In this document: positions 2,495 to 13,784 of the stretch, piece after piece
Layout of the letters: each line of letters starts with the position of its first letter
Numbering within the stretch: position 1 is the first letter of the stretch
Source of the DNA: Rhodococcoides fascians A25f
Lineage (GTDB): Bacteria > Actinomycetota > Actinomycetes > Mycobacteriales > Mycobacteriaceae
Length of the DNA: 64,000 nt
Direction: 5' to 3'
Assembly (NCBI RefSeq): GCF_000760935.2
Contig: NZ_CP049744.1
Location: forward strand, 3,813,501-3,877,500
Made by a program: the position numbers and the translations under genes
The notes under the pieces: model-generated
The model's input: only the letters and a program-made list of their open reading frames with translations
Databases searched by the model: none
Told to the model about the DNA's origin: nothing

Positions 2495-3862
2495 ATGACG
2501 GACTCGAAGGCAGTCGACATCGACCACCTCACCCACACTCTGCGTGACCGCAACATCGCGGGGGTGACCATCGGCTGGGTCGACAACAATGGCATCGTCC
2601 GATCACGCACCGTGCCCACCGCAGGATTGACGGCAGTCGCACGGCGTGGAGTAGGAGTTACCGCGGTGTTCGCGGTGTTCGATTCCCACGACGGGATCAC
2701 GTTCGCCCACGAGGGACTGTCGACGCCGTCCGGCGATGTGCGGTTGATTCCGGTGATCGACAACGCGTCGAGCGTGGTCGCCCTGTCCGGACAGCCAGGG
2801 CTTGTCTGGGTACACGGCAGGCAGCTGTCGGCGGACGGCTCTCCCTGGCCCTACGATCAACGTGCTGTTCTCGAGCGGCAGGTTCAGAGGGCGTCCGATG
2901 CGGGTTTCGAGGTGCGGGCCGGATTCGAGATCGAGTTCGCCCTGACTCGCGAATCGGACGGGCTCTCGGCTCATCGCGGACCTGCCTACTCGGCGAACGC
3001 ACTCCGCGACGTCGACGAATTCGTAGTCCTGCTGCTCGAGGCGCTGACTGCGAACGGCCTCGACATCGGTCAGATTCATGCCGAGTACGGCGGCTCCCAG
3101 CTGGAGATCGCATTGAGTCCACTCGATCCACTTGCTGCAGCCGATGCGCAAGTTCTCGCGCGGCAGACCATCCACTCAGCGGCGAAAGCTCACGGCCTGC
3201 GGGCAAGCTTCGCTCCCCTGCCCTCATCGAGCAGTGCAGGTAACGGGTGGCACCTGCACACGTCACTGGTTCGTGATGGTCACAACGCATTGACCGGGGA
3301 CGGAGAGTACGGACTGTCCGACACCGGGCGGGCGTACGTCGCGGGCCTCGTTCGAGAACTTTCGGGACTCACTGCCATCACGGCACCGAGTTCGGGTTCG
3401 CTGCTGCGTCGTCGACCGGGCTACTGGGCAGGTGCCTTCGGGTTCTGGGGCGTCGAAAACCGTGAGGCTGCAGTGCGACTCGTACCGGCCACACCCCTTC
3501 TCGGCCCCGAACACACGAACGTCGAGTTGAAGGCATGCGACGCGTCCGCCAATCCGTATCTGGCACTGGCCGTCACGATCGCGGCCGGCCTGTCGGGAGT
3601 CGCGGATTCGGCGCAGTTGCCGTCACCGGTCCAGGAGGACGTGGGAGGTTGGGACGACGCGCGTCGCGAGACCGCGGGGATCTCCCCACTCGCGACCACC
3701 CACGCGCAGCAGCGCGACAACCTACTGTCGTCAGCACTGGTCCGAGACGTGTTGGGCGAGGAACTTCTGGGCGCATTCGTTGCCTGCCGGGACGCCGACG
3801 CCACGTGGGCGGAGAGCCATACCGAGGACGAACTGCTCGAATCGTTGCGCTGGATCTACTGA
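2495..3862 (+). CDS. Glutamine synthetase family protein (455 aa)
   Basis: A full-length member of the type I glutamine synthetase fold. The N-terminal beta-grasp half is followed by the catalytic barrel with GFEIEFAL (about residue 145, metal-binding glutamates), the GNGWHLHTSL motif (about 250, equivalent to the GSGxHxHxS ammonium/glutamate loop), an Arg-rich ATP/phosphate segment and a late NVELKACDASANPYLA motif (about 345-360). It lacks the conserved adenylation-loop context of housekeeping GlnA, and its divergence suggests a gamma-glutamyl ligase acting on an amine or polyamine (GlnA3-like, PuuA-like) rather than primary ammonia assimilation. The next gene starts 1 base after its stop, so the two are probably co-translated. 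The substrate cannot be told from the sequence. Confidence 0.88.
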   Translation: MTDSKAVDIDHLTHTLRDRNIAGVTIGWVDNNGIVRSRTVPTAGLTAVARRGVGVTAVFAVFDSHDGITFAHEGLSTPSGDVRLIPVIDNASSVVALSGQPGLVWVHGRQLSADGSPWPYDQRAVLERQVQRASDAGFEVRAGFEIEFALTRESDGLSAHRGPAYSANALRDVDEFVVLLLEALTANGLDIGQIHAEYGGSQLEIALSPLDPLAAADAQVLARQTIHSAAKAHGLRASFAPLPSSSSAGNGWHLHTSLVRDGHNALTGDGEYGLSDTGRAYVAGLVRELSGLTAITAPSSGSLLRRRPGYWAGAFGFWGVENREAAVRLVPATPLLGPEHTNVELKACDASANPYLALAVTIAAGLSGVADSAQLPSPVQEDVGGWDDARRETAGISPLATTHAQQRDNLLSSALVRDVLGEELLGAFVACRDADATWAESHTEDELLESLRWIY

Positions 3863-3863
3863 G

Positions 3864-4562
3864 ATGCTGCGCCGGTTCCCCGAGGCAAGCACCATTGTCT
3901 CGGGGCTCGATCATGTTCTGCCGCAACCGGATCAACTCTGCGGACCGTTCTCGGCATCGGTTGCGCTGACGGCCGTCATGGGCGACGACGCACCGGGCGT
4001 GACGGCACTTGCGGTCGCATCAGGGTCCGCGATCTGGCCGGTCGAGGTCGAGTCGACCGGTCCTCCCGGAACCCCTCGAATCACCGACGGGTGGGACGCA
4101 CTGCCGAGGGCCACATCGATCGACGCAGCCGGGACCACAGCGGCAGGTCTCGCAGAGGGCATCGAGACGGCAACCGACCACCGCGTTGCCGTCGTTCCGA
4201 TCATGGGGCCCGGTACCGAGCGGCTACGCCTGCTACTCGTCGGCCTTGCCGACGTGCACTTCCGATTCGGCCTGGTGGCGAATGTTCACACCGCGGAACT
4301 GACCGAATTCGATTGGAATGTAGGACATTTCGTGACCGTCTGGGGATTCGATCCAGTCGAGGACGTGGTTGCGATCGCCGACACCTATCGGGAACTCGGA
4401 GTCCCGGATATGCCACCTGGATGTAGAACCGTCTCCACCGACGCGTTCGCGTCGGCGATGTCCGAGCGTGGCCTGTTGCTGATCGTCGACAGCCAGGATC
4501 ATCATGCGGCGGTGGATCTGGTCCGCTCTCTCGAGCTACGACACGACGTGTGGTCGGTGTGA
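3864..4562 (+). CDS. Papain/C39-like cysteine-fold protein coupled to the glutamine synthetase homologue (232 aa)
   Basis: The ATG at 3864 lies 1 base after the upstream stop, which sets the start. I see a classic papain-type arrangement: QPDQLCGPF (Q21 as possible oxyanion residue, C26 as nucleophile), NVGHFVTVWGFD (H155) and VAIADTY (D173). Order and spacing match peptidase C39-like folds. There is no signal peptide or membrane segment. I do not recognise a named family with certainty. The tight coupling to a glutamine-synthetase-like ligase suggests amidase or gamma-glutamyl hydrolase chemistry on the ligase product, but this is only an inference. It ends 24 bases before a strong hairpin. 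Confidence 0.7.
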   Translation: MLRRFPEASTIVSGLDHVLPQPDQLCGPFSASVALTAVMGDDAPGVTALAVASGSAIWPVEVESTGPPGTPRITDGWDALPRATSIDAAGTTAAGLAEGIETATDHRVAVVPIMGPGTERLRLLLVGLADVHFRFGLVANVHTAELTEFDWNVGHFVTVWGFDPVEDVVAIADTYRELGVPDMPPGCRTVSTDAFASAMSERGLLLIVDSQDHHAAVDLVRSLELRHDVWSV

Positions 4563-5735: not shown

Positions 5736-6104
5736 TTACAGCACCTCCGGGGCGAGCGAGACGATCTTCATGAACTTCTTCTCACGCAGCTCGCGGCCGA
5801 CCGGGCCGAAGATACGGGTTCCACGGGGATCGTTGTCCGGCTTGATCAGCACAGCAGCGTTCTCGTCGAAGCGGATGTACGAGCCATCCGGACGACGGCG
5901 CTCCTTGACGGTGCGGACGATGACGGCCTTGACGACCTCACCCTTCTTGATGTTTCCACCGGGGATGGCGTCTTTCACCGTAGCTACGATGATGTCGCCG
6001 ATTCCGGCGTAGCGACGTGACGAGCCACCGAGAACGCGGATGCAAAGGATTTCCTTTGCGCCCGTGTTATCAGCGACGCGTACTCGCGACTCCTGCTGAA
6101 TCAC
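5736..6104 (-). CDS. rplN: 50S ribosomal protein L14
   Basis: A 122-residue L14 ([20 protein letters not shown] at the start; [20 protein letters not shown] following). It is the first gene of this four-gene operon. In the E. coli arrangement rplN follows rpsQ directly; here rpsQ lies 7.4 kb away with a non-ribosomal block between, so rplN needs its own promoter. Confidence 0.97.
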
Positions 6105-6217
6105 TCACTTCTCCTTGACCTGGATGTACGTACGTGCCGGATTTCCGTCCCGACACGCGCGGTCGGCTGCCGGGTACGGGCGCACGAAGGCACACCGCTG
6201 CCACAGGCAACCGGTCA

Positions 6218-6247
6218 AGTGTAGGGGAACGGCCCCCGTGGATCCAA
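6218..6247 (-). promoter_or_regulatory. Candidate promoter of the rplN operon
   Basis: On the minus strand a TTGGAT (6242-6247) and a TACACT (6218-6223) are spaced by 18 bases, giving a transcript start near 6210 and a leader of roughly 105 bases before rplN. The -10 matches 4 of 6 consensus positions and the -35 only the TTG, so this is a weak prediction supported mainly by position. Confidence 0.35.
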
Positions 6248-6342
6248 ATCGTGATCGCCCGCCCTCGAGCCGTTGCCAACGGACCCAGGACTCTCGGTAC
6301 GGTTTCGGAGATGGAACATCTTCGGATCGTCGAGGCAGGGCG

Positions 6343-7380
6343 ATGACGTCGAACGACGTTACCGCGGGCTGGTGGTCCGGCTTACCCGTGGATCGAGTCG
6401 TTCGAGTACACGGTGCGACCGAACGAGAACTCGCCGATTCGGTGAACCCGCTGCCCACCTCTGCACCCGCAATCGTCTTCTTCGCGCTCGAGCCTACGAC
6501 TGCGAAACGGACTGTCGACCTCGTGGATGCCGTGGTCGACGAACTGGAGAATGCGGCGGCGAACTCGGCCGAGCTCTGGCTTCCGGAATTCGACCACCAG
6601 GCAGGCACGTCCACGCTGGATCGGCGCGCTGCGCGCACGACCGCTGTGCGGCTGGCCGCCGACACCGAGCACTTCGGCCCCTACGTCGGAGCTCTCGCCG
6701 ACGCGGCCGTCGCCGGGCGGTCGCCGCGTCGAGCAGCGTTCACCGTGGAAACCAGGGCTGCGGGTTCGGCGCGGATACTCGCAGTTGCTCAACGCCGCCG
6801 TTCCGCCGCGCTCGTGCTGGTCGTACCCACGGGCATCGATGCCGGTGTCGCCGCAACTGCGGCGGAATGGCTGTGCACGCATGCCGGGATGGCGGTGTGG
6901 GTCATCGGAGACGGGGCGTCGGGCATGGATCGGTTCCCGTCGGTGTCGGTTCGTGCACCCGCAGTGCCCGCCGGTGTCAGCACCGTCCTCGATCGCTTTC
7001 GCCCACTGAGCTATCCACCGATCGCCGGACATCCGCACCCGGCCAGTGATCCGGAGAAGCGCTTGTATCGAGCGCTGGACGTGCACGAGTGGGCCACCGG
7101 ACGGGAGCACAATCGCTCGATCCGGCTCGACGAGCTCAGCCGACCGTTCACAGTCGACGTACTGTGGCGCACCGAGAGAGTCGTCGTGGAAATCGACGGC
7201 AACGAACACCGTGCACCCGAGCGTTTCGCCGAGGACCGCGTGCGCGACAACCAACTGCAGACACACGGTTACATGGTGTTGCGGTTCACCAACGCTCAGG
7301 TGATGGACGACCCGCACCGCGCTGTCGCTACCATCCGCGAGGCAGTATCGAGAAGACGATCGAAGGGGGATCCTCGATGA
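6343..7380 (+). CDS. DUF559/Vsr-like PD-(D/E)XK nuclease-domain protein (345 aa)
   Basis: The C-terminal third (about residues 230-335) reads like the DUF559/very-short-patch-repair nuclease fold: FTVDVLW (Asp near 272), VVVEIDGNEHR (E-x-D near 283-285), then ERFAEDRVRDNQLQTHGYMVLRF, the D-x3-D/RDxxLxxxG-x-x-VLRF pattern of that family. The N-terminal 200 residues are alpha/beta-looking, without a motif I know. The start at 6343 is chosen because earlier in-frame codons lie in non-conserved, promoter-like sequence. Its stop overlaps the next start (ATGA, 7377-7380), so it is the first gene of a coupled operon with a winged-helix protein and a HerA-like ATPase. A DNA-processing or defence role is inferred from this pairing. 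Confidence 0.75.
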   Translation: MTSNDVTAGWWSGLPVDRVVRVHGATERELADSVNPLPTSAPAIVFFALEPTTAKRTVDLVDAVVDELENAAANSAELWLPEFDHQAGTSTLDRRAARTTAVRLAADTEHFGPYVGALADAAVAGRSPRRAAFTVETRAAGSARILAVAQRRRSAALVLVVPTGIDAGVAATAAEWLCTHAGMAVWVIGDGASGMDRFPSVSVRAPAVPAGVSTVLDRFRPLSYPPIAGHPHPASDPEKRLYRALDVHEWATGREHNRSIRLDELSRPFTVDVLWRTERVVVEIDGNEHRAPERFAEDRVRDNQLQTHGYMVLRFTNAQVMDDPHRAVATIREAVSRRRSKGDPR

Positions 7381-8030
7381 GTACCGAAGACCTGAACGGG
7401 ACCGAGGCAGCAGTGCTACTGGTCCTGATGGCCGAAGCGAGTCCGGTCAAGAATTCCGAACTCAGAACGATGGGCCCCGAATTGGCCAAGCCTTCTCGCG
7501 ACAAGCTGAAGAACGCAGGTCTGATCGAGGTGAACTCCTCGGTACGCCCGATGACTCTCGAACTGACCGACAAGGGGTGGCGTACCTGCGGTGAACTCAT
7601 CGGCGGTGAACCCCCGGCTCGATCGACCGGAGCCGGTAAGGCGATGTTCACCGTGTTGGCCGGGTTGCGTCGATGGCTCGATCGCACCGACAGCCGTCCG
7701 GCGGATGTGTTCTCGCCCCGCGAGGACGAACCCGCACCCGCCGACAGGTCCGAGAAGTCCGACGAGACCGTCGACATCGAAGCCTCGATTCGCACGGCTT
7801 ACGCGCGGCTCGCACGTGAACCCGGCAGCACGGTTCGACTCTCGCGACTGCGAAACGAGTTGCACGACATACCGAGAAGCGACCTCGACGACGCTCTCGC
7901 ACGCCTGCGACGAGCGTCGGACGTTTCGTTGATCCCCGAAGAGAATCAGAAGACACTGACGGACGAGGAACGTGCTGCCGCCGTCGTCGTCGGTAATCAG
8001 CAGAACCACCTTCTCTCGATCGAAGCATGA
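7377..8030 (+). CDS. Winged-helix-like protein coupled to the HerA-like ATPase (217 aa)
   Basis: The N-terminal 70 residues (EAAVLLVLMAEASPVKNSEL, then ELTDKGW) look like a MarR/PadR-style winged helix with its closing LTxKG wing. A charged linker (about residues 100-140) leads to a second helical unit (about 140-195; RLSRLRNELHDIPRSDLDDAL) that resembles another small helix-turn-helix. It overlaps both neighbours by ATGA (7377-7380 and 8027-8030). It may be a DNA-targeting or regulatory subunit of the nuclease/ATPase pair. I do not recognise a named family. Confidence 0.65.
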   Translation: MSTEDLNGTEAAVLLVLMAEASPVKNSELRTMGPELAKPSRDKLKNAGLIEVNSSVRPMTLELTDKGWRTCGELIGGEPPARSTGAGKAMFTVLAGLRRWLDRTDSRPADVFSPREDEPAPADRSEKSDETVDIEASIRTAYARLAREPGSTVRLSRLRNELHDIPRSDLDDALARLRRASDVSLIPEENQKTLTDEERAAAVVVGNQQNHLLSIEA

Positions 8031-11000
8031 TGGGCGTTGAGTCGACGATGACGGACAACGAGCAGATCCGAGCCCTCGAATCGGTGCGGCTGAGCTGGGC
8101 ACCGACACCCGACGACGTCTGGCGTTCGCAATCGAACGTGCATGTGCCGGGGATGCACGAGCGGGTCTTCCTCGAGGTGATGAATGCGTACGACGACGCC
8201 GATGTGTCCGATGACGCCAGCCCTCTCGGTGTCGTCGTGCGAGGGCCTGCCGGCTCGGGCAAGACGCACCTACTGGGCCAGGTGCGCGAGGAAGTACAGC
8301 TCAAGGGGGGTTACTTCTTTCTGATCCGGCTCCTCGACGCCGCCGGATTCTGGCGCTCGACCCTGATGGGAATGCTCGACGATCTGATGCGCCCGTCCGG
8401 TCGCGGATCCGACAGTCAGCTCGGTTTGCTGCTTCGACGCCTGTGCGAGATCGGCGACGCGTCCGAGGATCAGCGCGCAAAGATCATGGGCGAGAACATG
8501 ATCGATGCCGAGACGCTCGACGCCTTCGTCACCGCGGTGTACAAGGTGCATCCCCGCCATCGCCGGACGTCGCAGCACACACTGCGCGCGCTGGTGCTGT
8601 CCATTGCCCCGGACTCTGCGGTTCAGGACCTGGGCGATGCATACCTGCAGTCGATCGACGACGTCGATCCCGAGGAGTTCTCGGGGTGGGGAATTCGCCG
8701 CGCCGAGCTCGGCCATCAGGGCATCGCCGAGAACATTTCGCGACTGCTCGCGATCACCGGCCCGACGATTCTCGCGATCGACCAGATCGACACTCTCGTC
8801 GCCCAGTCGCGCACCGGATCCGATCAGGAGTTCGCCGACGCGCAGGAGGACAAGGTCGTCGAACAGCTGGCGCACGGGCTGATGTCTCTACGCGAGACAC
8901 TCCCCCGCACCGCCTCGGTGCTGTCGGCTCTGTCGAGTGCGTGGGAACTGATCGCTGCCCGTGGAGTCGCTCCCATGCGAGACCGTTTCCGAGTCACTCA
9001 GTCGCTCAAGCCGATTCCGTCGTCGGACATCGGTCGGCTACTGCTCGGACGACGCCTGGCAGCGTGCTTCCTCGAAGCGGGCTTCACTCCGCCGCACCCG
9101 ACGTGGCCGGTGGCACCCGACGCGTTCGAGCAAGCCCCGGACTTCACTCCGCGCCAGCTGCTCATTGCCGTCGATCGCCACATCAGGCACTGCCTCGACA
9201 CCGGCATCGCATCGGAGCTGACGAGCTTCACCGACCGGTCCGGCCCGGCAGATGCGCCGGAACTCCCCACCGCGCGGGTCAACGAACTCGACATGCTCGA
9301 CGATCGCTACAAGCAACTTCGCGAACAGGTGGACGTCTCCGTTCCGCTGCGTCCCGACAGCGAGGACTCGATCGTTCCCGCACTGCTGTCCGCGGGTCTG
9401 ACCGCGTGGATCCACGAACACCAGTCGTCCGATGACAGCCTCGCCCAGGACCCGCCCCCGAGCGGCAAGCCTGCCCTGCACGCCCGGCTACGCCACACCG
9501 TCGACACCGATACCGACGACGAGGAGCACTGGTGCTTCCGTGCGGTGACGTCCGGCAACGCTCGGGCCGCGCTGGCCCGAGTGGAGCGCGCAGTGACCAC
9601 AGCGGGCCTGCGCGTCGACATGCCCAAACGGCGACTGATTCTGATCAGGAACGACCCGTGGCCCAACGGAGCGAAAACCGAGCAGACGATTGCAGCCCTG
9701 CGTCGCGCCGGAGGCGTCGTGGCGCCCTTGAGCGACCAGGACCGTCGGGCTTTGGCAGCGCTGTCGATCCTGCTGAGCGAGAACTCCCCCGCGCTCACCT
9801 CCTGGCTGCTCGCGCGCAAGCCGGCACACGACGTCGAACTGTTCGGCGCGGTGTTGCCTGCCGTGAGCGTCGTCGACGACGACACGGCCCTGATCGAACC
9901 GGAGACCCCGATCACCGCGGCCGCACCGGCCGCATCGCGTCGGCCGTCCATCGTGGTGGGTGCCGAATTGAGCACAGGTGCCGATGTCGCGGTTCCCCTC
10001 GAAGCGCTGCGCAAGCACACGGCGATCTTTGCCGGCTCCGGCTCGGGCAAGACGGTGCTGATCCGACGTTTGGTGGAAGAGTCTGCGCTGCAGGGTGTTT
10101 CGGCGATCGTACTCGACGTCAACAACGACCTGGCTCGGCTCGGCACTGCATGGCCGGAGGACGAGCGAACCTGGCCGCCGGGTGACGAAGCCAAAGCAAC
10201 GGCGTATCTGCGCGACACCGATGTCGTGGTCTGGACGCCGCGCAAGTCCGCCGGTCGGCCGCTGAGCTTTCAGCCCCTTCCCGATTTCGTCAGCGTCCTC
10301 GGTGACGCCGACGAGTTCGAGGCCTCCGTCGAGTCTGCACTGGCCTCGCTCGAACCGGCTGCGGGCGTTCTCGGTACCTCACAGAAGGCCAAACACGGTC
10401 GGGCCGTGCTGAAGTCGGCCCTCGATCTGTTCGGTCGACGCCCGCACGGTGGCAATCTCACCGACTTCATCGACTTGCTCGAGGAATTCCCCGAGGACGC
10501 CAGCGAGATGCGCGACGCCGTCCGCATCGCTGCCGGTCTGGCCGAGAATCTCAAAGCCGCCGCCGCGAACGATCCGATGTTCGCCGGAGCAGGTACGCCG
10601 GTCGATCCGGCTGTTCTGCTGACGCCGGTCGAGGGCAAGAAGGCCAGGGTGTCGGTGATCAACCTCGCCGGCCTGACCACCGACGAGCAGAAGCAGAGCT
10701 TCGTCAACCAGCTGCAGATGGGCTTGTTCGCCTGGATAAAGAAGAATCCTGCGGGCGACCGGCCGCTGGGCGGACTGTTCGTCATGGACGAGGCGCAGAA
10801 CTTCGCGCCGTCGGACAGGACGACCGCCGCGACACACAGCACCCTCGCTCTGGCGTCGCAGGCACGTAAGTACGGGCTCGGTCTGGTGTTCGCCACCCAA
10901 GCTCCGAAGGGCCTGCACAACCGCATTGCCGGCAACGCGTCGACTCAGTTCTACGGCCTGTTGAACAGCCCGTCGCAGGTCGATGCGGCCAAGGAGATGG

Positions 11001-11170
11001 CGCGAGTCAAGGGCGGCTCGGTTCCCGACGTCGGGCGTCTGCCCGCCGGTCAGTTCTACGCCGCCGTGGAAGGCGCGGAGTTCCGGCGCACGGCCACTCC
11101 ACTGTGCTTGTCTTACCACCCCAAGAGTCCACCGACCGAGGAAGAAGTCATCGAACTCGCGCGTTCCTGA
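8027..11170 (+). CDS. Large double-P-loop ATPase with C-terminal HerA/FtsK-like module (1047 aa)
   Basis: Two separate ATPase units are visible. The first has Walker A GPAGSGKTHLL at about residues 73-83 and a Walker B-like TILAIDQIDTL at about 247-257, in the style of AAA/ORC or STAND ATPases. The second has Walker A GSGSGKTVLI near residue 670 and Walker B GGLFVMDEAQNFAPS near 915, followed by ASQARKYGLGLVFATQAP and an NASTQFYG segment. That order is typical of HerA/VirB4/FtsK hexameric DNA pumps. There are no membrane segments. The gene overlaps the upstream winged-helix gene, and a nuclease gene stands first in the operon. HerA-type ATPases work with nucleases in DNA end resection (HerA-NurA) and in several anti-phage systems; a similar job is inferred here. 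Confidence 0.85.
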   Translation: MMGVESTMTDNEQIRALESVRLSWAPTPDDVWRSQSNVHVPGMHERVFLEVMNAYDDADVSDDASPLGVVVRGPAGSGKTHLLGQVREEVQLKGGYFFLIRLLDAAGFWRSTLMGMLDDLMRPSGRGSDSQLGLLLRRLCEIGDASEDQRAKIMGENMIDAETLDAFVTAVYKVHPRHRRTSQHTLRALVLSIAPDSAVQDLGDAYLQSIDDVDPEEFSGWGIRRAELGHQGIAENISRLLAITGPTILAIDQIDTLVAQSRTGSDQEFADAQEDKVVEQLAHGLMSLRETLPRTASVLSALSSAWELIAARGVAPMRDRFRVTQSLKPIPSSDIGRLLLGRRLAACFLEAGFTPPHPTWPVAPDAFEQAPDFTPRQLLIAVDRHIRHCLDTGIASELTSFTDRSGPADAPELPTARVNELDMLDDRYKQLREQVDVSVPLRPDSEDSIVPALLSAGLTAWIHEHQSSDDSLAQDPPPSGKPALHARLRHTVDTDTDDEEHWCFRAVTSGNARAALARVERAVTTAGLRVDMPKRRLILIRNDPWPNGAKTEQTIAALRRAGGVVAPLSDQDRRALAALSILLSENSPALTSWLLARKPAHDVELFGAVLPAVSVVDDDTALIEPETPITAAAPAASRRPSIVVGAELSTGADVAVPLEALRKHTAIFAGSGSGKTVLIRRLVEESALQGVSAIVLDVNNDLARLGTAWPEDERTWPPGDEAKATAYLRDTDVVVWTPRKSAGRPLSFQPLPDFVSVLGDADEFEASVESALASLEPAAGVLGTSQKAKHGRAVLKSALDLFGRRPHGGNLTDFIDLLEEFPEDASEMRDAVRIAAGLAENLKAAAANDPMFAGAGTPVDPAVLLTPVEGKKARVSVINLAGLTTDEQKQSFVNQLQMGLFAWIKKNPAGDRPLGGLFVMDEAQNFAPSDRTTAATHSTLALASQARKYGLGLVFATQAPKGLHNRIAGNASTQFYGLLNSPSQVDAAKEMARVKGGSVPDVGRLPAGQFYAAVEGAEFRRTATPLCLSYHPKSPPTEEEVIELARS

Positions 11171-11203
11171 CGGCGGGCGACCAACACTGGCACACTGGAT
11201 TCG

Positions 11204-12526
11204 ATGAAAAACCTCGCTCGCGGGGAGAACTGCCCCGCTCCGACCGGACCCCTGACGGTGACACTGGCCGCTTCGACCTCAGTCGACGTGTCCGCGCTGC
11301 TGTTGGGGCGGGACGGACGTGTGCGTTCGGACGCGGATCTGGTGTTCTACAACCAGCCCGCGGGTGCAGGCGTGGACTACCAACGCGCGCCGTCCGGCCA
11401 TCTCGTCCGGGTGGATCCGTCTGCGATTCCGCCCGACATCGAGACCATTGCGATCGCAGCCTCGTTGGACGGAAGTGGTCCAGCAACATTTGCCGCCGCG
11501 GGCCCTACGTCGGTGACGGTCTCCGATGCGTCGGGGACGGCTCAGGTCGGGTTCGCTGCCGATGCTCTCGGGGACGAAAGCGCGCTGGTGTGCCTGGAGC
11601 TCTACCGGCGCGGTGAGCAGTGGAAGATCCGCGCTGTCGGCCAGGGATACGCGGACGGGTTGGCCGGTCTCGCCACCGCTTTCGGTATCAGTATCGACGA
11701 CGACGAGCAGCCGCCCGAGGTACCGACTGCAACCCCCTCACACAAGATCGAACCACCCGTTGATTCACCTGTCCACCAAGGAGTTCTGGCCATGAGAAGC
11801 GAACTGTTCGCGCCTGCCCACGCCGAGGTTCCCGGGTCGGGCATTCAGAAGCAGGGCAGCAAGATGTGCCGCGTCGGCATGAGCGGCGAGCTGATGGCCC
11901 GCGCGGGCTCGATGGTGGCGTACCAGGGAAACCTGCAGTTCGAGGCCAAGGGCTCAGGGGGTATCGGCCGGGCGTTGAAGCAGGCGCTGTCCGGCGAGGG
12001 CGTGCCACTGATGAAGGTCACCGGTCACGGTGACCTCTTCCTCGCCAATGCCGCACAGGACGTCCATCTGATCGACTTGGACGGCTCGGATGGACTGACC
12101 ATCAACGGTGCCAACGTGCTGGCCTTCGAGTCCTCGCTGAGTTACGACGTCAAGCGAGTCCAGGGCGCGGCGGCAGGTGGAAACGCGGGCTTCTTCAATT
12201 GTGTGTTCACCGGGCGCGGGCGAATCGCCATCACGACCGACGGTGTGCCGGTGGTGTTGAACGTCGATCAGCCGACGTTCGCAGACCCGCAAGCTGCGGT
12301 CGCGTGGTCGTCGTCCCTGCAGACACGGGTGAAGAAGAACGATTCGTTCGGACTCGGGACCCTGATCGGCCGTTCGACCGGTGAGCGATTCACCCTGGAG
12401 TTCGCGGGTCAGGGATTCGTCGTCGTACAGCCGTCGGAACAACCGCCCGGCGGATTGATCGGTGGTGCCGGCAGCGGGGAGCAAGCCGGCGTCGGTGGGG
12501 CGCTCGGCGGCCTGCTGGGCAGGTGA
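11204..12526 (+). CDS. TerD-AIM24 fusion protein (440 aa)
   Basis: Residues 1 to about 170 are a TerD domain: VSALLLGRDGRVRSDADLVF with the calcium-binding acidic residues, then YNQPAG and an ELYRRGEQWKIRAVGQGYADGLAGLA closing segment typical of tellurite-resistance TerD/TerE. After a Pro-rich linker (about 170-190), residues about 195-425 form an AIM24-like beta domain (MCRVGMSGELMARAGSM; GRGRIAI; FGLGTLIGRSTGERFTLEFAGQGFVVVQPSE). The end is Gly-rich. It starts 33 bases after the ATPase stop and probably belongs to the same operon. TerD proteins occur in stress and phage-response systems; the fusion with AIM24 and the HerA neighbour are unusual. It ends 7 bases before the convergent glycosyltransferase gene. 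Confidence 0.85.
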   Translation: MKNLARGENCPAPTGPLTVTLAASTSVDVSALLLGRDGRVRSDADLVFYNQPAGAGVDYQRAPSGHLVRVDPSAIPPDIETIAIAASLDGSGPATFAAAGPTSVTVSDASGTAQVGFAADALGDESALVCLELYRRGEQWKIRAVGQGYADGLAGLATAFGISIDDDEQPPEVPTATPSHKIEPPVDSPVHQGVLAMRSELFAPAHAEVPGSGIQKQGSKMCRVGMSGELMARAGSMVAYQGNLQFEAKGSGGIGRALKQALSGEGVPLMKVTGHGDLFLANAAQDVHLIDLDGSDGLTINGANVLAFESSLSYDVKRVQGAAAGGNAGFFNCVFTGRGRIAITTDGVPVVLNVDQPTFADPQAAVAWSSSLQTRVKKNDSFGLGTLIGRSTGERFTLEFAGQGFVVVQPSEQPPGGLIGGAGSGEQAGVGGALGGLLGR

Positions 12527-12533
12527 CCCCCGG

Positions 12534-13421
12534 TCACAGGAACAGCGTGCGGTACCGGATCGATCCCTGGACATGACCGACGACCACAGCCACTGCTCCG
12601 ATCCAGCGTTCTCGGGGCACCCGCGACACCCTCTGCGGCACCAGCGGATTGGTCACCAACAGTCGCAGCACATGCTTCGAGAAAACCCTGACCGACAGAC
12701 CGGCGAACCCGTAGTCGCGATACGCGACATACAGCTGAACGTCGCCGACGGCGTATCGCCGCACCTGTGACCAGAACTCGCGCATCGTCGGTCTGAGGCG
12801 GTAGTCGACGGTCGCAGCTCCTGCATGAGCCATGCGGAACCCGGCCAGTTGTACACGCCAGGAGAAGTCGAGGTCCTCGCCCGCCTCGGTCAAGGTCTCG
12901 TCGAAACCGTGCACGGCATGAAAGACATCGGCCCATACCGCGAAGTTGCAGCCTGGGACGTACGGGAGAAAGTCGGTGTCGAGACCCGCGGTCGAGGGGG
13001 TCATCGGACGGCGACGGTACACCGTAGGAGAATTCACCCTCGACGTGTCCACCGAGCCACTCACCAGATCCGCCGTCGATGCGGCAGCCACCAGTTCGCT
13101 CAACCACTGGGGCCGGACGACGTCATCGCCGTCGCAGAACGCCAGCAACTCGGTTCGAGCTGCCGATGCCCCGACGTTACGTGCGTGCGATGTGCCTGCA
13201 GAACCGGAAGCATCGACGTACCGAACGCATATTCCGTAGTCGTCAGGGCGCGTGCCGAGAAACTCCCGCAGCCCATCGGTCGACCCGTTGTCGCTGATGA
13301 TCACCTCGAAATCGGGGCCGTGATCCTGTACCGCCAAGGCGTCCAGTTGGGCTCCCAGGGTCGCGACCGCATTGCGGACGGGGATGACCACAGTCACGCC
13401 CTTGCGTCGGTTCTCGTCCAT
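12534..13421 (-). CDS. Family 2 glycosyltransferase (295 aa)
   Basis: GT-A fold: VTVVIPVRN (nucleotide-binding start, residues 9-17), IISDNGSTDG, FCDGDDVVRPQWL (DxD metal motif) and EAGEDLDFSWRVQLAGFRMAH (acceptor-side ED motif). There are no clear transmembrane helices. The ATG at 13421 has a purine-rich ribosome binding site (GGAAGAG). It lies just downstream of the S10 operon terminator on the same strand. It is clearly related to the glycosyltransferase at 24583-25467 (shared YVDAS-x-GxxHARNxGA and LLAFCDxDDVV). The sugar donor and acceptor are unknown. Confidence 0.9.
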   Translation of the reverse strand: MDENRRKGVTVVIPVRNAVATLGAQLDALAVQDHGPDFEVIISDNGSTDGLREFLGTRPDDYGICVRYVDASGSAGTSHARNVGASAARTELLAFCDGDDVVRPQWLSELVAAASTADLVSGSVDTSRVNSPTVYRRRPMTPSTAGLDTDFLPYVPGCNFAVWADVFHAVHGFDETLTEAGEDLDFSWRVQLAGFRMAHAGAATVDYRLRPTMREFWSQVRRYAVGDVQLYVAYRDYGFAGLSVRVFSKHVLRLLVTNPLVPQRVSRVPRERWIGAVAVVVGHVQGSIRYRTLFL

Positions 13422-13454
13422 CGAATGCTCTTCCTACCTCGGGTGAGAACACAA

Positions 13455-13491
13455 AAGAGCCCATCCCCGGTTGATCCGGGAATGGGCTCTT
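13455..13491 (-). terminator. Rho-independent terminator of the S10 operon
   Basis: A 16-bp stem (13455-13470 with 13476-13491, one mismatch) and a 5-base loop lie 15 bases downstream of rpsQ. On the minus strand the stem is followed by TTTTGTGTT, a good U-rich tail. It separates rpsQ from the glycosyltransferase gene behind it. Confidence 0.85.
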
Positions 13492-13505
13492 CCAGCACTC
13501 GGTGC

Positions 13506-13784
13506 TTACTTGGCCTTTTCGAGAACCTCGACCAGTCGCCAGTGCTTCGTGGCGGACAACGGACGGGTCTCCATGAGCTGAACGCGATCGCCTACGCCGG
13601 CGTCGCCCTTCTCGTCATGTGCCTTGACCTTGGTGGTACGACGGATGATCTTGCTGTAGAGGGGGTGCTTGACCCTGTCCTCGAGCTCGACCACGATCGT
13701 CTTTTCCATCTTGTCGGATACGACGTAGCCGATCCGGACCTTACGGTTGTTGCGCTCTTCAGTCACAGTGTTTTCCTCGCTCAT
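13506..13784 (-). CDS. rpsQ: 30S ribosomal protein S17
   Basis: A 92-residue S17 ([39 protein letters not shown]). The first 13 residues are an acidic extension common in actinobacteria. Its ATG overlaps the rpmC stop by ATGA (13781-13784). It is the last gene of the operon; the usual next gene rplN is 7.4 kb away. Confidence 0.97.

Follow-up and report, generated by a model that had tools for sequence, protein, structure and literature searches.

The DNA analysed here, called the window, is a stretch of 64,000 nucleotides from Rhodococcoides fascians A25f (contig NZ_CP049744.1, positions 3,813,501 to 3,877,500). It carries four genes between rplN (5736-6104, minus strand) and rpsQ (13506-13784, minus strand), at the junction of the spc and S10 operons and running against the ribosomal genes: NUC (6343-7380), WH (7377-8030), HERA (8027-11170) and TerD-AIM24 (11204-12526), all on the plus strand. 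An initial annotation had read these four genes as one candidate DNA-processing or defence island. The frames were confirmed, together with the ATGA overlaps that it had reported between NUC and WH and between WH and HERA, and the start of TerD-AIM24 33 bases after the HERA stop codon. The conserved unit is the three genes NUC-WH-HERA, and the fourth gene did not prove to be linked to it. The ribosomal genes of the window were named by order and size, and an annotated Tsukamurella record has the same order. The closest named relatives, 98% identical in HERA, are Rhodococcus and Rhodococcoides strains. Four papers, each available to us in part, were drawn on (PMC10853773, PMC12839542, PMC10250203 and PMC3710099).

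NUC encodes a protein of 345 residues, in which a weakly ATPase-like N-terminal domain (residues 4-206) precedes a Vsr-like DUF559 nuclease domain (residues 233-340; 7039-7362, plus strand), delimited by DSSP of the predicted model and by the fold match. Pfam assigns DUF559 at 3.2e-13, with the gathering score passed, and the nuclease core in the model is alpha-beta-beta-beta-alpha-beta with a Vsr-like fold match, in agreement with the family first proposed for this gene from the letters alone. D272 lies on strand 2 of the model, and E283 and D285, two residues already picked out as mutation targets, lie within strand 3 or where it ends. Both of the latter are kept in 73/73 sequences spanning the site, out of 74 examined, the remaining piece (L108) ending short of it; HERA sequences of 850 residues or fewer and NUC sequences of 250 or fewer were excluded from our conservation counts, and identical sequences were merged. 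NUC is thus predicted to have a PD-(D/E)XK fold of the Vsr-like type with D272, E283 and D285 intact as putative catalytic residues. The N-terminal domain weakly resembles AAA+/STAND/ORC ATPases and, still more weakly, ABC ATPases, and a conserved P-loop is absent. None of the four proteins matched NurA at a limit of 0.1, and none matched a SIR2 or DUF4297 effector. In three loci (L032, L033 and L056) a 106-residue gene located 62-113 bases before NUC reads by eye like what we take to be an alkyltransferase-like DNA-repair protein.

HERA (1047 residues) joins an AAA+ ATPase domain (residues 45-392; 8159-9202), a middle alpha/beta domain (residues 415-609; 9269-9853) and a HerA/FtsK pump (residues 638-1040; 9938-11146), as judged from Pfam, the predicted model and a fold search. 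The initial annotation had described an AAA/ORC-like ATPase fused to a HerA/FtsK-like pump: DUF87/HerA (6.5e-11) and AAA_16 (3.2e-8) both pass their gathering scores, so that the fusion stands, its AAA+ part being a candidate Orc/Cdc6-family ATPase. The model has a predicted local distance difference test score (pLDDT) of 85.7 and a predicted template modelling score (pTM) of 0.58, and in its fold search the pump took the HerA fold, HerA-NurA structures ranking among the best matches. The HerA/FtsK clade is described as having a glutamine as sensor-1 where strand 4 ends and, just upstream, an arginine finger (PMC10853773, in the parts available). In the pump, Walker A (residues 670-676) is conserved in 136/136 sequences, the DE of the DEAQ motif (residues 921-924) in 135/135, Q958 in 131/135 and R947 in 129/135, the smaller denominators reflecting one sequence (L115) without its second half. 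The window HERA has all of these, and by both motifs and fold its pump belongs to the HerA/FtsK ATPase clade. The AAA+ domain has strands at residues 68-73, 96-101, 247-252 and 295-302 of the model, an order compatible with AAA+, and its Walker A (GPAGSGKT), its Walker B D252-Q253, with D-Q instead of D-E, and R320 are each invariant in 136/136 sequences. The fold lists were filled by the pump and are therefore uninformative on the AAA+ and middle domains. The middle domain has a helix and strand order in the model that makes it a candidate inactive restriction endonuclease (REase)-like domain. A sequence-based identification of it as such was tried, and no relative was found in profile, Pfam or hhalign comparisons; the hhalign comparison with Mrr, DUF559 and PDC-M02A, in which 8/20 Mrr pieces were unusable and some of those used were evidently from the wrong strand, had no power, because the control, DUF559 against Mrr, failed too. 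Longer HERA variants (L094, L107, L112, L113, L114 and L125; 1402-1739 residues in the five measured) are extended by several hundred residues inserted ahead of the pump; they have lost the arginine finger, and the insert gave no Pfam match in the three scanned.

WH (217 residues) was first read as a winged-helix protein. It has no Pfam match of its own at a limit of 0.1, and among 37 homologs weak winged-helix matches were found to DUF6293_C in seven (best 0.0029) and to HTH_27 in three (best 0.038). WH adjoins HERA, as called, in 76/80 places of a named set and in 39/42 places of a class set; the gene caller missed WH in a few loci. Its ratio of nonsynonymous to synonymous substitution rates (dN/dS) is above that of HERA in 18/21 pairs. 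In some loci its identity to the window protein is below that of HERA (66 vs 85% in L135, 45 vs 57% in L143), and in several mycobacterial loci the two are about equal.

The linkage of the three genes was examined over 394 genomes of the class, with thresholds of E <=1e-20 for HERA and E <=1e-15 for NUC. HERA is present in 46/394 genomes and 17/137 genera, and NUC in 25/394, all within the 46 HERA-positive ones; in one of these (G370) the two genes are near the ends of different contigs. Forty of the 46 genomes make up the class set, four (G000, G005, G010 and G050) belong to other sets and two (G180 and G210) were left out. The 42 HERA places in the 40 class loci are preceded by WH in 39, and NUC or a fusion of TIR with NUC (TIR-NUC) occurs in 21 (six of them TIR-NUC, with the split gene of L117 counted twice) and a PDC-M02A/B-like pair in five. 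The named set consists of the best 79 loci (80 HERA places) of at least 552 relatives; NUC lies beside HERA in 40 of its 80 places, including three loci added by tblastn (L137, L142 and L205). The trio is also intact in Nonomuraea and Tsukamurella, in records filed as plasmids, yet one bears ribosomal operons and the other is 11.9 Mb long. Furthermore, it is found intact and in the same order on a plasmid of the alphaproteobacterium Methylobacterium aquaticum; since the order is kept at 38% HERA identity, the association of the three genes is not due to chance.

The nuclease slot is exchanged among relatives, and may hold NUC, TIR-NUC, DUF4365 (PDC-M02A) with PDC-M02B, a P-loop protein, or nothing. 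The sole TIR-NUC scanned (L098) matches TIR_2 at 1.4e-33; the P-loop protein (L093 and L193) has no Pfam match, its motif being seen by eye; and the DUF4365 and PDC-M02B pair, a PADLOC defence candidate, stands beside WH-HERA in five class loci. When 73 HERA sequences were placed in a quick maximum-likelihood tree, from which wrong origin labels on some Rhodococcus rows were disregarded, the cassette types cluster, with one or two changes for TIR-NUC, one or two for M02, 14 for NUC and nine for an empty slot, and the P-loop protein appears once. Loss of NUC does happen, because a mycobacterial locus (L184) retains a 52-residue remnant of it. The dN/dS of HERA is 0.046-0.278 in 11 pairs lacking NUC versus 0.031-0.241 in ten pairs having it, and the dN/dS of NUC itself (0.139-0.354) exceeds that of HERA in 10/10 pairs. 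One genome (G024, contig 9; L021) holds two diverged versions of the system, one after the other, in the rpsQ-rplN gap: NUC-WH-HERA (54%), a shortened WH with HERA (98%), and then TerD-AIM24.

The boundary between the S10 and spc operons (6105-13505 in the window; also L207-L213 and L227) is, for the window's family, an extensive site of accessory genes. There rpsQ and rplN are 5.2-91 kb apart in 16/16 of the sampled genomes with both genes on one contig (18 sampled), and the two genes are adjacent in G017 (L213), a genus genome outside that sample. In the order's other families they are adjacent in 12/13 loci read; outside the window's family the distance exceeds 1.5 kb in 7/37 genomes chosen by hand from about 106, which is not a rate because long ones already noticed were included. 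In Tsukamurella the gap holds, besides the trio, a helicase gene and a VapB/PIN pair. In Gordonia (L152 and L166, where NUC was not found) and Williamsia (L197 and L204) the cassette is on the other side of rplE, so that two ribosomal gaps are used. Our literature search for ribosomal-gap hotspots gave no match.

TerD-AIM24 is a true fusion as first described (TerD 2.4e-25, AIM24 2.3e-38). In 37 genus genomes the rpsQ-rplN gap holds the HERA cassette in 31, a tally in which some copies are damaged or lack a called NUC; both the cassette and TerD-AIM24 are present in 26, the cassette only in five, TerD-AIM24 only in four and neither in two (Fisher p 0.32). Three of the four genomes with TerD-AIM24 only (G010, G025 and G032) have the trio elsewhere, without TerD-AIM24 beside it, and in the fourth (G003) the gap is broken by contig ends and HERA is absent; L209-L211 show the gene in the gap with no trio there, as do L207/L208, where a contig break intervenes. 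One genus subclade has the reversed order, with TerD-AIM24 before NUC; Williamsia has the trio and TerD-AIM24 on opposite sides of rplE-rplX-rplN; and in the 40 class loci TerD-AIM24 was not seen at a distance of six genes or fewer from HERA. The co-occurrence count proposed in the initial annotation thus favours the trio (NUC with HERA in 25/25) and not the fourth gene, which we reject as a component. TerD-AIM24 appears to occupy this ribosomal-operon gap independently, as a neighbour outside the system. On TerD and AIM24 together, our literature search returned one paper, on tellurite resistance.

Other genes were noted in and around the gap. A family-2 glycosyltransferase gene (12534-13421, minus strand) lies in the same rplN-rpsQ interval of the window, and in G006, whose trio is elsewhere, the interval holds a different single gene of 296 residues (L212, 6129-7019). 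Just beyond rplE in the window (2495-4562) lie two genes, one of them glutamine-synthetase-like (Gln-synt_C 7.8e-73) and the other of the DUF6885 family. Three giant frames of 4572, 1915 and at least 5822 residues occupy 26644-64000 on the minus strand and, by their size, are perhaps a peptide synthetase cluster.

The trio was matched to none of the named systems compared, but its kind is already known as a computational proposal. In the parts of PMC10853773 available, ORC/Cdc6-type HerA/FtsK capture systems comprise an Orc/Cdc6 AAA+ ATPase, a HerA/FtsK pump, an active REase and a winged helix-turn-helix (wHTH), with an inactive REase between the AAA+ core and a C-terminal wHTH, and with a rapidly evolving multi-wHTH protein; they are proposed to intercept invader DNA during segregation, transfer or packaging. 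It was the sole paper that our literature searches matched to the trio's combined parts. Like these systems, the trio has an AAA+ ATPase, a HerA/FtsK pump, a predicted active nuclease and a probable wHTH, and some of both are on mobile elements; domains placed in one or several proteins belong to the variety described there, which the trio fits. It differs in its nuclease, Vsr-like DUF559 or DUF4365 (terms absent from the main text of that paper), in the weakly ATPase-like N-terminal domain of NUC, in the D-Q Walker B and in cassette exchange. Its inactive REase is a candidate, and no C-terminal wHTH was seen. Family members may be listed in the supplement of PMC10853773, novelty being judged here against the available main text. 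Among other systems, the PADLOC family that HERA matches best is mad8 of MADS (1.7e-18, across the pump), with no match to other mad families in a PADLOC scan of these four proteins; DndH of DndFGH (C-domain, PDB 7es4) matches within the pump only (9.4e-4), and DndF and DndG matched none of the four. No NCBIfam HerA cut-off was reached by HERA. In contrast to HerA-SIR2, HerA-DUF4297 and HerA-NurA, the trio has a Vsr-like nuclease as effector and a pump fused to an AAA+ domain. PDC-M02 fills the nuclease slot elsewhere and is absent from the window locus. Shango (TerB, ATPase and helicase; PMC10250203, seen in part) likewise sets a Ter-family domain beside an ATPase gene, but has TerB rather than TerD, and a helicase, and the TerD gene of the window is outside the trio.

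Taken together, the trio is probably a counter-invader system of three genes that intercepts DNA in the manner of ORC-HerA capture, and by comparative analysis an anti-invader function is likely. WH and the AAA+ domain would recognize or load on invading phage or plasmid DNA, perhaps in replication or transfer; the D-Q AAA+ domain may bind ATP as an assembly switch rather than for fast hydrolysis; the HerA ring would then pump the DNA and hand it to NUC, which would cut it; and in relatives TIR or other cassettes would replace or extend the cutting step. We infer this order of events, and the target, from general background on HerA and from the available parts of PMC10853773. More tentatively, and with rather less confidence than even chance, the trio may be a counter-invader system distinct from the others and as yet unnamed, with a naturally hydrolysis-impaired AAA+ sensor (Walker B D-Q) joined to a HerA pump and served by exchangeable cutting cassettes (the Vsr-like nuclease with a second degenerate ATPase domain, the TIR-nuclease, the PDC-M02 pair and the P-loop repeat protein), with working nuclease-free descendants, lodged in ribosomal-operon gaps of Mycobacteriales.

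Several observations weigh against an interception system. The cassette is at a fixed site in most genus genomes, as a housekeeping gene would be, the neighbours beyond the gap are mostly metabolic by reading, and HERA had no match in 50,697 phage records. NUC is absent from 39 named loci (32 of them mycobacterial; one, L158, is cut by a contig end and cannot be judged) and from the second copy of L150. HERA and WH are both under purifying selection without NUC, so that NUC seems dispensable in some lineages. On the molecular side, the D-Q in Walker B speaks against motor activity of the AAA+ domain, WH is no more than a probable winged-helix DNA-binding protein, and for the middle domain the PDB profile search returned four weak matches (best 0.37) and Pfam nothing consistent.

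The trio might instead be a cellular DNA-repair or end-processing machine of the HerA-NurA type, its pump and Vsr-like nuclease resecting or clearing damaged DNA, an explanation that we regard as unlikely. The HerA-NurA fold matches of the pump, the strong purifying selection and the fixed site in 31/37 genus genomes speak for it; on the other side are the patchy occurrence in the class (46/394), the swapping of the nuclease or its fusion to TIR, the Methylobacterium plasmid and the lack of a NurA match. Placed behind it, and also improbable, is a WH-HERA pair acting independently of any nuclease, whose pumping might, for example, clear away proteins or plasmid DNA on its way in and so interfere with transfer or segregation, with nucleases optional. 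WH keeps to HERA far more closely than NUC does (76 vs 40 of the 80 named places), pairs lacking NUC are under purifying selection, and the remnant in L184 marks a loss there rather than an original absence; but it is the trio arrangement that reached the alphaproteobacterial plasmid, and NUC without HERA was not found in the 394 genomes at the thresholds used. A stress or defence system made up of all four genes, TerD-AIM24 among them, for which the adjacent position on the same strand and the 26 genomes with both in the gap might be cited, is very improbable and largely refuted by the separate occurrences, the opposite order, Williamsia and the class loci.

If the trio is indeed an interception system, its family is a compact and widespread actinobacterial test object for ORC-HerA capture, known from the comparative genomics of PMC10853773 as far as available. 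The defined nuclease, its natural swaps and the nuclease-free versions let the role of the pump alone and sensing by the D-Q AAA+ domain be probed, and the findings suggest that in five loci here the PDC-M02 pair serves as an exchangeable nuclease part within a larger machine.

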